Assembly: GCF_015169395.1 (NCBI RefSeq)
Contig: NZ_CP063458.1
Coordinates: 5,890,001 to 5,954,000, forward strand
From: Humisphaera borealis
GTDB lineage: Bacteria > Planctomycetota > Phycisphaerae > Tepidisphaerales > Tepidisphaeraceae
Length of the DNA: 64,000 nucleotides
Reading direction: 5' to 3'
Part shown: in pieces, positions 5,278 to 63,416 of the stretch
Numbering within the stretch: position 1 is the stretch's first letter
Layout of the letters: each line of letters opens with the position of its first letter
Position numbers and translations under genes: made by a program
The notes under the pieces: model-generated
Database searches by the model: none
What the model was told of the DNA's origin: nothing
The model's input: the letters and a program-made list of their open reading frames with translations, nothing else

Positions 5278-5465
5278 GTAGGGTCCGCCTTGGCGGACGC
5301 GGCGGGGCTCGATTCCCCCCAAGGGTTCTATGCAATGCAGAATGCAAAACATGCAATGAAAATTGCAAAACGGCAGGGCAACAAAGTCCCTTCCGTTTTG
5401 CAATCGTCATTGCATGTTTTGCGTTTTTCGTTCGTCGCGTCAGCGTCCGCCAAGGCGGACCCTAC
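5278..5465. repeat. R1 pair (copy 1) with nested R8 pair
   Basis: Arms 5278-5300 and 5443-5465 are perfect 23-bp reverse complements (gtagggtccgccttggc start). Each contains the small palindrome TCCGCC-TT-GGCGGA. Inside the pair sits an R8 pair (5331-5376 and 5395-5431) made of ATGCAAAA words. The complex separates two convergent genes. Confidence 0.95.
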
Positions 5466-8083: not shown

Positions 8084-9394
8084 TCAACCCCAACGCTTCA
8101 CAATGATCGTATCGTTCTGCCCGCCGAAGCCAAAACTGTTGCTCATCGCAACATCCACCTTGGCCTGCCGCGCTTTGTTCGGCACATAGTCCAGGTCGCA
8201 ATCGGGGTCGGGCGTGTCGAGGTTCATCGTCGGCGGCAGCACCTGGTCGCGGATCGCCAGCACGCACGTGATCAACTCCACCGCGCCGGCTGCGGCGATG
8301 AGGTGGCCCATCATGCTCTTGATGCTGCTGACCGGGCAGGCCCTGGCCTTTTCTTCGAAGACGGTCTTGATCGCCTGCGTCTCGTTGCCGTCGTTCTCTC
8401 GCGTGCCGGTGCCGTGGGCGTTGACGTAATGCACGTCGCTCGGCGACAGGCCTGAATCGGCGAGCGCCTCGCGCATCGCCATCACGGCACCCATCCCATT
8501 GGGGTCCTGATCGGTAATGCGGTAGGCGTCGGCGGTGCTGCCGTAGCCGACGACCTCGGCCAGGATCTTTGCCCCACGCTTCTGGGCATGTTCGAGCGTC
8601 TCGAGGATCACCATGCCCGCGCCTTCGCCGAGCACGAAGCCCTTGCGATTTAAGTCGAACGGTCGGCTGGCGGCGGGGGGGTTGTCGTTCTGGTCGCTCA
8701 GCGCCGTCAGGCGGTTGAAGCCGGTGACGCCGAACGGATGGATCATCGAGTGCGCGCCGCCGCCGATCATGATGTCGGCGTCGCCGCGGCGGAGGATCTC
8801 CGTCGCCTCGCCGATCGCCTGCGTGCTGGCGGCGCACGCCGTCAGGCAGTTCATCGCCGGGCCGCGAGCGCCGGTGAACAGCGCCAGGTGCGAGAGGGGC
8901 ATGTTCGGCTCCTGCTCCAGCTCGCGGGTGACGTCCATCAGCTGCATCGCCAGCTCGGCAAACTTGACGGCGTCGTGCGACTGTGACTCGGCTTTCCACG
9001 ACGCGAGATTGGCCTGCGTAAAGGCTCCGAAATCGAGCGAGCCTTCGCCGGAACCGAGGTAGATGCCCACGCGGTCGAGATCAAGCGAGTTCGTAATCTG
9101 GGATTTGAGATCGCCCAACTCAGGCAGGCCAGCCGACTTCCAGGCCTTGGCGACGGCGGCGAGGGCGAACTGCGTGTTGCGGCCGGCAGACTCGTGGCCG
9201 CTCAGGTCCGACAGGTGGTCGGACAGCTTGAAGTTCTTGACCTCGGCGCTGATGCGGGTGGGAAACGTCTCGGCGTCGAAGAGGGTCGTGCGGTCGATCC
9301 CGGACTCCCCGCGCAGCAGACGCTGCCAGACGGCCTCGATGTCGTGGCCCATGGGGGTGATCCAGCCGATTCCGGTGATGACGACACGGTTCAT
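8084..9394 (-). CDS. Beta-ketoacyl-ACP synthase, FabF type, catalytically intact
   Basis: It condenses malonyl-ACP with an acyl-ACP. The 436 residues span a full thiolase-fold ketosynthase. The catalytic triad is complete: Cys187 in LTACAASTQAIGEA, His327 in VNAHGTGT and His364 in SIKSMMGHL, with Lys359. The start ATG 9394 begins MNRVVITGIG and follows GGAAGACC. The open frame extends further upstream only through the R1 repeat. It is the last gene of the FabZ-ACP-FabZ-KS-KS cluster and follows a paralog of the same length that lacks all three catalytic residues, so it is probably the active partner of a heterodimer. The R1 arm ends 9 bases before the start. Confidence 0.93.
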   Translation of the reverse strand: MNRVVITGIGWITPMGHDIEAVWQRLLRGESGIDRTTLFDAETFPTRISAEVKNFKLSDHLSDLSGHESAGRNTQFALAAVAKAWKSAGLPELGDLKSQITNSLDLDRVGIYLGSGEGSLDFGAFTQANLASWKAESQSHDAVKFAELAMQLMDVTRELEQEPNMPLSHLALFTGARGPAMNCLTACAASTQAIGEATEILRRGDADIMIGGGAHSMIHPFGVTGFNRLTALSDQNDNPPAASRPFDLNRKGFVLGEGAGMVILETLEHAQKRGAKILAEVVGYGSTADAYRITDQDPNGMGAVMAMREALADSGLSPSDVHYVNAHGTGTRENDGNETQAIKTVFEEKARACPVSSIKSMMGHLIAAAGAVELITCVLAIRDQVLPPTMNLDTPDPDCDLDYVPNKARQAKVDVAMSNSFGFGGQNDTIIVKRWG

Positions 9395-9403
9395 AGGTCT
9401 TCC

Positions 9404-9465
9404 GTAGGGTCCGCCTTGGCGGACGCGATTCTGGGAACGAGAGCGTCCGCCAAGGCGGACCCTAC
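9404..9465. repeat. R1 pair (copy 2), compact hairpin
   Basis: Arms 9404-9426 and 9443-9465 are perfect 23-bp reverse complements with a 16-bp loop. The pair lies in the gap between the two ketosynthase genes, and its arm ends 9 bases before the downstream start codon. Confidence 0.95.
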
Positions 9466-9479
9466 ATCTCCCGATTGCC

Positions 9480-10784
9480 TCACACCTTCCTAAACACCAG
9501 CGCCGCGTTCTGCCCGCCCAGGCTGTAGACGCTGCTGACCGCGACATCCACCTTCGCCTGGCGCGACTCGGGGACGGCGTTCAGTTTCAATCCTTCGATC
9601 GGCTTGCTGGTGTTCCGCGCCGGCGGGATGACGCCATAGTGTACGCCCAGCGCCGCTGTCGCCGCGTCGACGCCGCTGCCGGCGGCCATGTTGCCGATCT
9701 GGGCTTTGATGGTCGTCAGCGGCACGCGCTCCAGCCCGCCGCCGAAGACCGTGTGCAGGCCGGCCAGTTCCGCGCGGTCGTGGCTCGCGATGCCCAATCC
9801 GCACGGCACCATCAGGTCAACCGCCGTCGGCGGAAGGTTGGCCTCGGCGAGCGCCTTCTGGATCGCCCGGCCGTAGCTGTGACCCTTGGGGTCGGGCTCG
9901 GTCACGCTATAGGTGTCCTGGCTGGCGCCGAAGCCGACCAGTTCGCAATAGATCTTCGCGTCTCGCGCCTTGGCGTGTTCGTAGTCTTCGAGGATCAGCA
10001 GGCCGCCGCCCTCAGCCGCCGCGGTGCCGGTCGCGCCTTCGTCGAACGGGCGGACGGCCTGATCGGGGGTGTCGTTGTGCTGCGTGGTGACGCGTTTGAG
10101 CAGTACCTGCCGCAGCAGGTTCATCGGGACGACCTTGGTCTCGGCGCCGCCGCAGATCGCCAGGTCGGCGTCGCCGCGCTGGATGGTGCGGAACGCTTCG
10201 CCGATTGCCAGGTGGCTGCTGGCGTCGGCGCAGGTGATCGTGTTCGACGGGCCCTTGAGCTCATGGATGATCGTCACATGGCAGGCCAGCATGTTCGGCA
10301 GGTACTTCAGCAGCCAGAGCGGCGTGAGCTGCTGCATGCCGACGTTGCCCCACTTTTTCAAGTCGATTTTCGAGAGGTCGTCCGCCGACCGCGCCGCCGC
10401 CATTGCCTGTGTCAGCTCGGCCAGATCGACGCTGATCAGCCCTGCGCCGATATTGCACCCGAACCGGTCGGATTTAATCGTCGGCGTATCGGTGTAGGCC
10501 TTGGACTTGAGCCCCGAATCCTTGAACGCGTCGTCGGCGGCGATGACGGCGAGCTCAATATCCCGCGCCATCACCTTGGTGGCCTTGCGGTAGCTCTTGG
10601 GGACGAAGTCGTTGATCTTGTACCCCGGCACTTCGCCGGCGATCTGGGTCGGAAAGCCCGACGGATCGTACATCGCGATCCGCCTGACCCCGCACTGCCC
10701 GGCGGTGAGGTTCTCCCAGAAGGCCTTCGTGCCGATGCCGATGGGAGAGATAATGCCGATGCCGGTGACGACGACTCTTCGCAT
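9480..10784 (-). CDS. Ketosynthase-like protein lacking the catalytic triad (chain-length-factor-like)
   Basis: This 434-residue FabF-fold protein aligns over its whole length with the neighbouring intact ketosynthase. An ungapped comparison puts Asp187 at the nucleophile (TCADASSHLAIGEA, with a Cys displaced two residues upstream), Cys328 at the first His (VPCGLGI instead of NAHGTGT) and Asn365 at the second His (TIKAQIGN instead of MMGH). Lys360 is kept. In type II polyketide synthases, an inactive KS paralog (chain length factor) pairs with the active KS and sets chain length. By analogy this could be the non-catalytic half of a KS heterodimer, though the substitutions differ from the classical Gln. 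The reading frame is intact, so the protein is probably maintained rather than decaying. Confidence 0.9.
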   Translation of the reverse strand: MRRVVVTGIGIISPIGIGTKAFWENLTAGQCGVRRIAMYDPSGFPTQIAGEVPGYKINDFVPKSYRKATKVMARDIELAVIAADDAFKDSGLKSKAYTDTPTIKSDRFGCNIGAGLISVDLAELTQAMAAARSADDLSKIDLKKWGNVGMQQLTPLWLLKYLPNMLACHVTIIHELKGPSNTITCADASSHLAIGEAFRTIQRGDADLAICGGAETKVVPMNLLRQVLLKRVTTQHNDTPDQAVRPFDEGATGTAAAEGGGLLILEDYEHAKARDAKIYCELVGFGASQDTYSVTEPDPKGHSYGRAIQKALAEANLPPTAVDLMVPCGLGIASHDRAELAGLHTVFGGGLERVPLTTIKAQIGNMAAGSGVDAATAALGVHYGVIPPARNTSKPIEGLKLNAVPESRQAKVDVAVSSVYSLGGQNAALVFRKV

Positions 10785-10891: not shown

Positions 10892-11386
10892 TCAGATCGT
10901 CACCGCTGACCCCGTCCGGTAGTTCTTCAGCAATTCCGTGAACTGCTCCGTGAACACAAAGTTGTGCTCCGGGAACTCCATGCCGGACATGTTCTGGTCG
11001 ATGTGGCTGAACATCAGCTCGATGTCCGCCACCTTCTCCGATGCACCCGAACCCTGCGCTGTGACAACGCCGGCGATCGATGCCCCTTGTTCGCTGAGCT
11101 GTTCGATCTTTGCCGAATAGGTGATCGTCTCGCCCGGCCGGACCAAGCGGTGGAAGGTCGCCTTGCCGATCTTGGCCAGGATCACCTTCTCGGCGAAGTT
11201 CCGGGCCTCGCCGACGAGGATGCCAGCGGTCTGGGCCATCCCCTCGACGATCAGCGAATGCGGCACGATCGGAAACGCCGGGTAGAGGTCGTGCAGGTGC
11301 TCTTCGGCCAGCGAGACGTTCTTGATCGCCGTCGCGGACGTTCGAGTGGTGAACTCGGTGAATTTGTCGATCCAGATCCAGCGCAT
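10892..11386 (-). CDS. FabZ-like hotdog protein lacking the catalytic histidine
   Basis: This 164-residue hotdog-fold protein aligns without gaps to FabZ in its active-site region. FabZ has GHFPxxPxxPG..EAMAQ. Here the segment reads DLYPAFPIVPHSLIVEGMAQ, so the catalytic His is Leu34 while the Glu (Glu48) is kept at the correct spacing of 14. A His at 32 is two positions off. It may be a non-catalytic dehydratase partner, a thioesterase-like hotdog, or a binding subunit for the intact paralog at 12224-12739. It lies in the middle of the acyl cluster between the ACP gene and the KS-like gene. No Shine-Dalgarno is obvious: the bases upstream of ATG 11386 read CCTCC, its complement. Confidence 0.85.
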   Translation of the reverse strand: MRWIWIDKFTEFTTRTSATAIKNVSLAEEHLHDLYPAFPIVPHSLIVEGMAQTAGILVGEARNFAEKVILAKIGKATFHRLVRPGETITYSAKIEQLSEQGASIAGVVTAQGSGASEKVADIELMFSHIDQNMSGMEFPEHNFVFTEQFTELLKNYRTGSAVTI

Positions 11387-11507: not shown

Positions 11508-11921
11508 TTACTTCAGTTTGGCCTCGATGTAATTGACGATCGTGTTGACCGTCATCAGGTCGTTCGCCGCTTCGAGCGTGGGGTTCGCTTCGAAGTCGGA
11601 ATAGTCGGCGTAGGGCAGACGCTTCTTCAGCTCGGCGATGCCCTTGGGGGTCAGCTTGTCGCCGGAGATGAGGCTGGGGTCGCCGCGAAGGCTTTCGAAG
11701 TCTTCGGGGAAGAGTTCGCCACGCGGAATCTTGAAGGGGTTAGCGGTGTCGGTGGTGAAGGCCTTCTCCAGGCGGAAGACGATGTCGAGGTAATCGATGC
11801 TCTCGGCGCCCAGGTCGCCGGAGAGCGTGGCCTTGGGGGTCACTTCGTCGGCGTCAACGCCGAGGGCGTCTTCGAGCACGCTCTGCACTTTGGAGTAGAT
11901 CTCGTCGCGGGAAAGAGCCAT
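11508..11921 (-). CDS. Acyl carrier protein, elongated form
   Basis: It carries acyl chains on phosphopantetheine for the adjacent enzymes. The attachment site is Ser41 in GDLGAESIDYLD (canonical GADSLD), followed by the recognition helix IVFRLEKAF. At 137 residues it is far longer than the usual 77-80. The extra sequence sits between helix II and the C-terminal helix (about residues 53-115, with GELFPEDFESLRGDPSLI and LTPKGIAELKKRLPYAD). Insert-bearing ACPs of this kind occur in planctomycete acyl clusters. The start follows a weak purine run. It is flanked by repeat pairs R12 and R6 but belongs to the same strand and cluster as the FabZ and KS genes. Confidence 0.92.
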   Translation of the reverse strand: MALSRDEIYSKVQSVLEDALGVDADEVTPKATLSGDLGAESIDYLDIVFRLEKAFTTDTANPFKIPRGELFPEDFESLRGDPSLISGDKLTPKGIAELKKRLPYADYSDFEANPTLEAANDLMTVNTIVNYIEAKLK

Positions 11922-12223: not shown

Positions 12224-12739
12224 TCACACACCGACCGCAGCGCCCTTCCCCATCGACTGCTCCAAGACCTTCCACCGCAGTCGGTTATGCTCCTGCAGCC
12301 GGGCATCCAACTCGCCTAGTTCGGGCTGTTTGTCGGCGAGATTGAACAGCGAGATTTCGATCCGGCCGGTGATGGCGGGGTTGTCGGAGGGCTTGCCGGC
12401 GCTGTTGACGACCGAGCCGGTCACCTTGAAGTTCCCGCCGGTCTCGGTCGCCTTGATGAGCTCCGCTTCGATCCGCAGGAAGTTGCCAGGCGCGACAAAG
12501 TTGCCGTAGCGGATGTTCTTCGATTCCTTCAGGACCGCCATCGACTTGGAGAACCCCGTCCGGCGATGCAGGATCCACCCGGCGGCCTGCGTGGCGGCTT
12601 CCAGCATCATGACGCCGGGCAAGACGGGAAACGACGGGAAATGGTCGCCCAGATACTCCTCGGCGAGCGACACGAACTTGCTCGCGACGATCTTGTCGTC
12701 GGTGAGGAGGTCGACCTTATCGATGAGGTTGAACTTCAA
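12224..12739 (-). CDS. 3-hydroxyacyl-ACP dehydratase, FabZ type, catalytically intact
   Basis: It dehydrates 3-hydroxyacyl-ACP. The active-site segment GDHFPSFPVLPGVMMLEAATQ holds the catalytic His33 and Glu47 at FabZ spacing. About 171 residues are encoded if translation starts at TTG 12739 (MKFNLIDKV), where family similarity begins and a weak AGGGA lies upstream. The open frame continues to 12841 with non-conserved sequence. The C-terminus extends beyond a minimal FabZ with a charged helix (ELGELDARLQEHNRL). It is the first gene of the cluster and is the intact counterpart of the FabZ-like protein at 10892-11386. Confidence 0.88.
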   Translation of the reverse strand: MKFNLIDKVDLLTDDKIVASKFVSLAEEYLGDHFPSFPVLPGVMMLEAATQAAGWILHRRTGFSKSMAVLKESKNIRYGNFVAPGNFLRIEAELIKATETGGNFKVTGSVVNSAGKPSDNPAITGRIEISLFNLADKQPELGELDARLQEHNRLRWKVLEQSMGKGAAVGV

Positions 12740-13272
12740 GCGGCTTGCGTCCCTGCAAGAGAGCCTCGGGTTGGTCGGTGCGTCCGATAACCTGCAGCCC
12801 GTTGTTCGCAGATTTTTAGCGGTGAACGTGGGGGATTGCAAGGGAAGCGGTGCCGTGGCGCGACGGACGTCTGCGCCGGGGACGTCTCTGGTCTACCGCT
12901 TTTAACACGAAGGCACGAAGCCACGAAGGGGACGAAGGGGACGAAGGGGACGAAGGGGACGAAGGGGACGAAGGGGACGAAGGTCACGAAGCTTGTTGCC
13001 TTCGGTACTCAGTCGGTCCCGCCGGGATTTGAAATCGGATCATCGACAATCGGACTCATGAACGCCAAAACGCCATGACCAAGAGGTCGAGATCGTCATG
13101 ACGCATCCTCAACTACGCATCGTGTCTGTGTGTCTTCGTGTCTTCGTGTCTTCGTGCCTTCGTGCCTTCGTGCCCTTCGTGTTGAAGAGGGAACTCTGAA
13201 CGACCAGCCCAGACGGATGACCGCCTCTTCGGTCCCCAGGATCGCAAGCGGGTCCTTACGACGAATGCCAAT
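12740..13272. repeat. R2 pair (copy 2) with a 9-bp tandem array
   Basis: Arms 12901-12988 and 13125-13186 are inverted runs of CACGAAGG words. Within the left arm, bases 12923-12976 are six exact head-to-tail copies of acgaagggg, plus a partial seventh. No gene is supported in the 533-bp gap, which should contain the promoter of the acyl cluster. Confidence 0.9.
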
Positions 13273-22586: not shown

Positions 22587-22721
22587 GTAGGGTCCGCCTT
22601 GGCGGACGCGATGGCGCAAAATGGACGGCGATATCAGATTTCCGTGGAGTTCGATGGGAGAAGCGAATCGCGGCAGGGGATAAACCACGCCACGAATCGC
22701 GTCCGCCAAGGCGGACCCTAC
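22587..22721. repeat. R1 pair (copy 3)
   Basis: Arms 22587-22609 and 22699-22721 are perfect 23-bp reverse complements. The first arm ends 9 bases upstream of the E3 start codon, just before its Shine-Dalgarno GGAG. Confidence 0.95.
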
Positions 22722-24928: not shown

Positions 24929-25062
24929 GTAGGGTCCGCCTTGGCGGACGCGAGGGCGCAAATATGTCGATGGCTTCAGACTTGTGCAGGGCTTCAGCGG
25001 CGAGGGCGAATCGGTATTACCTTCACCCCGCAAAAGATCGCGTCCGCCAAGGCGGACCCTAC
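24929..25062. repeat. R1 pair (copy 4)
   Basis: Arms 24929-24951 and 25040-25062 are perfect 23-bp reverse complements between pdhB and pdhC. The first arm ends 10 bases upstream of the pdhC start. Confidence 0.95.
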
Positions 25063-63320: not shown

Positions 63321-63416
63321 GGTCCGCCTTGGCGGACGCGTTTCGCGCCGGCATGGCGGGGGTCATGAAAGATGTTGAAGCGTCCCGCCGATCGCGTCCG
63401 CCAAGGCGGACCCTAC
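63317..63416. repeat. R1 pair (copy 5), supplying two stop codons
   Basis: Arms 63317-63339 and 63394-63416 are perfect 23-bp reverse complements. The TAG in the arm start gTAGggtcc is the stop codon of the MFS gene on the plus strand and of the metallo-hydrolase on the minus strand. Confidence 0.95.

Follow-up and report, generated by a model that had tools for sequence, protein, structure and literature searches.

A ketosynthase paralogue with its catalytic triad replaced, beside an intact one in Humisphaera borealis: a probable non-condensing partner within a five-gene planctomycete locus

What role is left to a ketosynthase that has lost all three of its catalytic residues and lies directly beside an intact paralogue? 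This question is raised by a stretch of 64,000 nucleotides from Humisphaera borealis (contig NZ_CP063458.1, positions 5,890,001 to 5,954,000, hereafter the window), where two ketosynthase genes, KSbeta and KSalpha, are the last two of a minus-strand run of five genes in the order HD2-ACP-HD1-KSbeta-KSalpha (Table 1).

Table 1. Features of the five-gene locus, in coordinates of the window
Feature	Position	Strand	Description
KSalpha	8084..9394	minus	Intact FabF-like ketosynthase (Cys187, His327, Lys359, His364); without the basic ACP-docking patch
Inverted repeat	9404..9465		Perfect inverted repeat of 23 bp in the KSbeta-KSalpha intergenic gap; one copy of a palindromic repeat found throughout the genome
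KSbeta	9480..10784	minus	Asp187, Cys328 and Asn365 for the catalytic Cys, His and His; Lys360 kept; docking patch R66-K67-K70 kept
HD1	10892..11386	minus	FabZ-like hot-dog dehydratase; Leu34 for the catalytic His, Glu48 kept
ACP	11508..11921	minus	Long acyl carrier protein of 137 aa, dedicated to this locus; GAESID with Ser41
HD2	12224..12841	minus	FabZ-like dehydratase; His and Glu both kept

KSbeta is a FabF paralogue of 434 residues encoded by an open frame, the plus-strand reading of the same interval being a shadow frame only. The first-pass annotation had described the exchange of Cys187 for Asp187, His327 for Cys328 and His364 for Asn365 with respect to the neighbouring ketosynthase, together with a conserved lysine and an intact frame, and the alignment returns exactly this picture, D187, C328, K360 and N365 of KSbeta facing C187, H327, K359 and H364 of KSalpha. 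That comparison had been called ungapped; small gaps are in fact needed, but the catalytic columns are unambiguous. Both proteins share 36% identity (E 2e-75), so this pairing of residues does not arise by chance, and the catalytic residues are absent from KSbeta rather than shifted. Where FabF holds a Cys-His-His triad with a lysine, KSbeta thus holds Asp187, Cys328 and Asn365, and it scores below the NCBIfam cut-off for fabF (319.6 of 493.75 bits). Nevertheless, a single-chain AlphaFold (AF2) model of KSbeta (pLDDT 93.1, pTM 0.93) predicts the complete double-thiolase fold of FabF, matching FabF from T. thermophilus (1j3n) with a Z score of 64.7 and an rmsd of 1.4 over 405 residues. FabF chains came top in this structural comparison and the chain length factor (CLF) entries 1tqy and 6kxd lower; since the list shows each of these entries through its best chain alone, we draw no conclusion as to a fold of KSbeta nearer to FabF than to the CLFs.

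The loss of all three catalytic residues in the window genome could be taken as the mark of a decaying FabF duplicate without function. However, this reading is refuted in practice by conservation and retains hardly any probability: the frame is open, dN/dS lies well below 1, relatives number in the hundreds, the operon is conserved, and non-catalytic residues are invariant. A pseudogene or frameshift is ruled out on the same grounds of open frames, dN/dS and conservation, and the frame-disrupted homologues in other species that the first-pass annotation had envisaged were not encountered, the frames of the relatives being open. Estimates of dN/dS among the closest relatives range from about 0.08 to 0.30, similar to those of KSalpha and obtained with synonymous sites near saturation, and KSbeta is, by these sequence comparisons, plainly under purifying selection. 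As regards its spread, 294 genomes of the phylum were sampled, and 37 of them, counting the one that holds the window, contain a match with an E value below 1e-78; five of the 37, forming family f20, contribute relatives in which both ketosynthases are intact. Such a match is held by 20 of the 21 further genomes sampled from the class to which the window belongs. A pattern search in named genomes returned at least 583 relatives; the best 80 all lie on contigs labelled as planctomycete, mostly Phycisphaerae, and among the matches listed the closest, with about 70% identity, belong to Tepidisphaeraceae and their kin. Of the more than 100 KSbeta relatives compared across Planctomycetota, nearly all adjoin an intact ketosynthase.

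Each sequence was classed as KSalpha or KSbeta according to which of the two window proteins it matched better, so that the intact f20 proteins were counted as KSalpha. Among 109 KSbeta sequences, the cysteine column held Glu in 86, Asp in 17, Gln in 3, Ala in 2, Asn in 1 and Cys in none; 47 sequences retained the first His, 18 the second and 82 the Lys. All 94 complete KSalpha held Cys-His-Lys-His. Because the sequences are related, and some genomes are perhaps present twice, these counts and those of the dehydratases given below overstate independence and do not stand for independent events. The general trait of KSbeta is therefore an acidic residue in place of the cysteine (Asp or Glu in 103 of 109). 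The full Asp/Cys/Lys/Asn set of the window, by comparison, occurs in only two of the 109 and is common only to the closest relatives of its lineage. Given this rarity and the free variation of the His positions, the proposal that the triad had been replaced by a different set does not extend to a fixed new triad, the loss of the cysteine being the only constant. The broader proposal of a distinct kind of non-catalytic ketosynthase partner fares better, as KSbeta lies beside an intact ketosynthase, is under purifying selection, and bears Asp or Glu where actinomycete CLFs bear Gln.

The prevalence of the acid also suggests that it could be functional in itself, either as a proton relay, through a buried salt bridge to Lys360, or in a cyclising or proofreading role like that of the "cyclization factor" AmcG. 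A base at the position of Lys360 accompanies the acid at 187 in 90 sequences, the three sequences with Gln hold an acid at position 365 instead, and AmcF-AmcG offers a precedent of a ketosynthase partner proposed to share in the chemistry (PMC10698177). However, 13 acid-bearing KSbeta proteins have no base, both His positions drift, two relatives (Ala-Gln-Thr-Thr/Ser) hold no charge at any of these positions, and folding alone may be reason enough to retain a buried charge; together, these points make a functional acid rather unlikely. The three Gln-bearing relatives also bring to mind KSQ-like proteins, that is, malonyl-ACP decarboxylases making starter units. Decarboxylation by KSQ, which has Gln in place of Cys and keeps both His, is held to need both of these His residues. 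They are absent from the window KSbeta, with its Asp, Cys and Asn, as well as from the three relatives with Gln, and a KSQ-like role is accordingly given next to no probability.

Further departures from the FabF triad were observed in the phylum. In other Planctomycetota, of families f31, f72 and f81, several additional FabF paralogues have their cysteine replaced by Glu, Asp or Ser (loci L185-L189, L193, L195-L197, L201, L202 and L209). A single open frame of 804 residues located outside the window (G000:C1:2913768-2915678) matches ketosynthases twice, and possibly represents a fused pair.

A second difference between both ketosynthases concerns the surface where the ACP docks. In FabF from E. 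coli, Lys65, Arg68 and Lys69 contact the ACP, and it is the monomer without the crosslink to the ACP that provides most of the contacts (PMC7138838); the basic patch of one protomer thus serves the active site of the other. Residues R66, K67 and K70 of KSbeta align with positions 64, 65 and 68 of this protein. All three positions are basic in the 32 KSbeta sequences compared, whereas none of 29 KSalpha sequences is basic at all three and 25 of them are basic at none. This asymmetry in sequence points to a CLF-like KSalpha-KSbeta heterodimer. The kept patch would also fit a KSbeta homodimer that binds the ACP without KSalpha, in a sequestering or regulatory role, as would the genomes of family f31, in which a KSbeta-like gene lies away from KSalpha. 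However, the complete patch is gone from every KSalpha checked, so that a KSalpha homodimer would have none, and the genes for KSalpha and KSbeta remain neighbours in most loci, even in those with a divided operon, leaving a free-standing KSbeta homodimer very improbable.

The heterodimer would be part of a larger conserved unit. The gene order of the window is found in most complete loci of relatives; in several families, the ketosynthase pair lies apart from the HD2-ACP-HD1 trio, and ACP and HD1 are kept in all 14 genomes checked. The ACP holds an extra segment of approximately 55 residues between helix II and its C-terminal part, which is conserved in relatives and is a good marker of the five-gene system. 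This long ACP is encoded in 50 of the 294 genomes, and 36 of the 37 genomes with a close KSbeta match are among those 50 (Fisher p about 2e-33, uncorrected for kinship). Homologues suggest that the true start of HD2 is a TTG at about 12739; upstream of this gene, a tandem 9-base repeat, ACGAAGGGG, is located at 12905-13000.

The genes flanking the run encode elongation factor P, adenylate kinase, acetyl-CoA synthetase, a CAAX-protease-like protein and a VIT/VWA protein, with no tie to chain building according to Pfam. A type II PKS cluster would combine an ACP with a ketoreductase or cyclase. Here the ACP is present, and no reductase or cyclase genes were found among the annotated neighbours in the window or, in relatives, among the inspected neighbour families of widest occurrence. 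Conserved neighbours in relatives, including proteins that we take from their sequences, by eye, to be a seryl-tRNA synthetase and ComEC, a membrane-anchored protein of 240 residues and others, are each bound to a lineage and uninformative as clues to the product. The last of those named, a conserved protein of about 240 residues with one hydrophobic N-terminal segment, is encoded 3' of KSalpha in several relatives (L036 11915-12685, L038 5733-6449, L047 4961-5977 and L103 5076-5909) and is absent from that place in the window. No description of the five-gene cluster was found in the literature searched.

The inverted repeat between KSbeta and KSalpha is probably a later insertion that lies outside the system. 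Its palindrome, GTCCGCCTTGGCGGAC, is a REP-like interspersed repeat, which occurs between genes in inverted pairs (9404-9465, 5283-5460, 22592-22716, 24934-25057 and 63322-63411) and reaches 10 copies in the window, where 0.02 would be expected; a 20-base form, TAGGGTCCGCCTTGGCGGAC, has 221 occurrences in the genome.

The dehydratases of the operon exhibit an asymmetry of their own. In FabZ from H. pylori, the active site is built by His58 of one subunit and Glu72' of the other (PMC2692856). HD2 of the window holds both residues, but HD1 has Leu for the His, so that the operon contains two enzyme pairs in which one member of each has lost catalytic residues. Across relatives, the Glu of HD1 is kept in 75 of 75 sequences and the His of HD2 in 68 of 68, whereas the His of HD1 is kept in 60 of 75 (lost in 15) and the Glu of HD2 in 57 of 68 (lost in 11), with at least six changes on the tree of the former and at least seven on that of the latter. 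Such a pattern, with two residues invariant and the other two repeatedly lost, is what would be expected if a heterodimer keeps one composite site, and the window genome, having lost only the HD1 His, fits it. Four genomes have neither the HD1 His nor the HD2 Glu; in these, neither homodimer site would be complete and the composite site would be. Fifteen further loci, at least one of which repeats a genome already counted, agree with the pattern. If the four residues were equally losable, the chance that some 13 losses would all spare one composite site is near 2 in 10,000, by a simple hand estimate (2 x 0.5^13) that ignores uncertainty in the counts. In HD2 proteins with Gln in place of Glu, a Glu is found four residues further on, which might stand in for the lost one. 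As with the docking patch, this asymmetry of residues points to an HD1-HD2 heterodimer.

Considered as a whole, these data make it quite probable that KSbeta is an obligate, non-condensing and CLF-like partner of KSalpha, and that HD1 and HD2 form a second heterodimer next to it. From the sequences, we infer complex formation, the docking partner of the ACP and a division of labour as follows. The KSalpha-KSbeta heterodimer would hold a single working active site, in KSalpha, with the far wall of the acyl pocket formed by KSbeta. The basic patch of KSbeta would be the main docking surface for the dedicated long ACP, which would hand its chain across the dimer to the cysteine of KSalpha. The HD1-HD2 heterodimer would also hold one working site, consisting of the His of HD2 and the Glu of HD1, and both pairs would run cycles of condensation and dehydration on the dedicated ACP, building chains that resemble fatty acids. 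Since the cluster is devoid of a reductase gene, keto-reduction, and enoyl reduction, if any, would be provided by housekeeping fatty acid enzymes. The conservation patterns suggest that each "dead" subunit survives by completing its live partner; the two ketosynthases, or the two dehydratases, could also act separately. As for the product, a lipid of wide conservation is a likelier guess than a secondary metabolite of sporadic occurrence. Planctomycetota are noted for their unusual membranes, and a cluster that is nearly universal in one class of this phylum would mark a conserved lipid pathway.

Among the unsettled matters of polyketide evolution is how a homodimeric ketosynthase gives rise to a ketosynthase with a dead partner, and the relatives of KSbeta bear on it. 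In a quick tree built without bootstraps, KSalpha and KSbeta each make up a group of planctomycete sequences. The f20 genomes encode a tandem pair with Cys-His-Lys-His in both members, the first being sister to KSbeta (SH-aLRT 96) and the second to KSalpha (94), so that descent of KSbeta from an active ketosynthase is the simplest assumption. In all five of these genomes, the KSbeta-side protein is basic at two or three docking positions and the KSalpha-side protein at none, despite both triads being intact. Living sequences seem to preserve the order of events, with a one-sided patch and two intact ketosynthases in f20 and catalytic loss in the sister clade. The simplest reading would be that docking became one-sided first, and that the KSbeta site, once deprived of its supply of ACP, had catalytic residues free to change. 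A second case of a live enzyme with a dead partner would be the dehydratase pair of the same operon. In the best tree, KSbeta groups with planctomycete ketosynthases and apart from Streptomyces CLFs, making a separate origin from actinomycete CLFs likely, but an AU test does not reject their union in one clade (p 0.416), and this origin is consequently not proven. The most extended version of the scheme, namely two obligate heterodimers with each site built from both partners, a functional acid in KSbeta and a CLF-independent origin in which the docking split preceded the loss of the site, all within a planctomycete-wide lipid or polyketide system, is unlikely to be correct in every part.

Several known systems resemble the one described here. 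Like KSbeta, the CLFs of actinomycete type II PKSs are full-length ketosynthase paralogues that adjoin an intact ketosynthase, have the nucleophilic cysteine replaced, and share their cluster with an ACP gene. The Gln attributed by the first-pass annotation to classical CLFs is indeed seen in the two Streptomyces CLFs compared, which hold Gln, Asp, Lys and Arg at the four positions. However, KSbeta proteins have Asp or Glu at the first of these, with Gln in only 3 of 109, and the window protein holds Cys and Asn where these CLFs have Asp and Arg. The window cluster also differs from type II PKS clusters in having no reductase or cyclase genes among the neighbours inspected, and KSbeta in its grouping in the best tree. 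A CLF-like partner function of KSbeta is likely from its sequence, whereas membership of the actinomycete CLF family is not established. In aryl polyene synthesis, ApeO-ApeC is a KS-CLF heterodimer accompanied by a two-protein dehydratase; ApeC has roughly half the usual size and a single thiolase fold (PMC8358021), unlike KSbeta with its 434 residues and complete fold. The full-size partner and the lack of other aryl polyene genes nearby rule out an aryl polyene cluster in the window. In the cispentacin pathway, AmcF is a ketosynthase whose non-catalytic KS-like partner AmcG is insoluble alone and is devoid of some secondary structure elements of CLFs (PMC10698177), while the fold modelled for KSbeta is complete; HD1 weakly matches AmcE.

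Acidic replacements of the cysteine in planctomycete FabF paralogues have been known since 2009. According to a study that sought ladderane enzymes and proposed altered substrates, Rhodopirellula baltica holds paralogues with Asp (NP_865682) or Glu (NP_866153) for Cys163, and Kuenenia has Val, Phe or Ser at this position (PMC2649909). The Glu-His-Lys-Asn pattern given there for NP_866153 was also found in other Planctomycetota searched; the ketosynthase pair, the five-gene cluster and the asymmetries between partners are not described in the parts read of that study (PMC2649909). Finally, in the mycobacterial dehydratase HadAB, two hot-dog proteins pair into a heterodimer that has a single working active site (PMC4491049). 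Both catalytic residues of that site come from HadB, while the HD1-HD2 site is predicted to take its His from HD2 and its Glu from HD1. KS-CLF pairs and one-site heterodimeric dehydratases are kinds of complex already known; the seemingly new elements are the system of five genes, how widely it occurs, and its two matched asymmetries.
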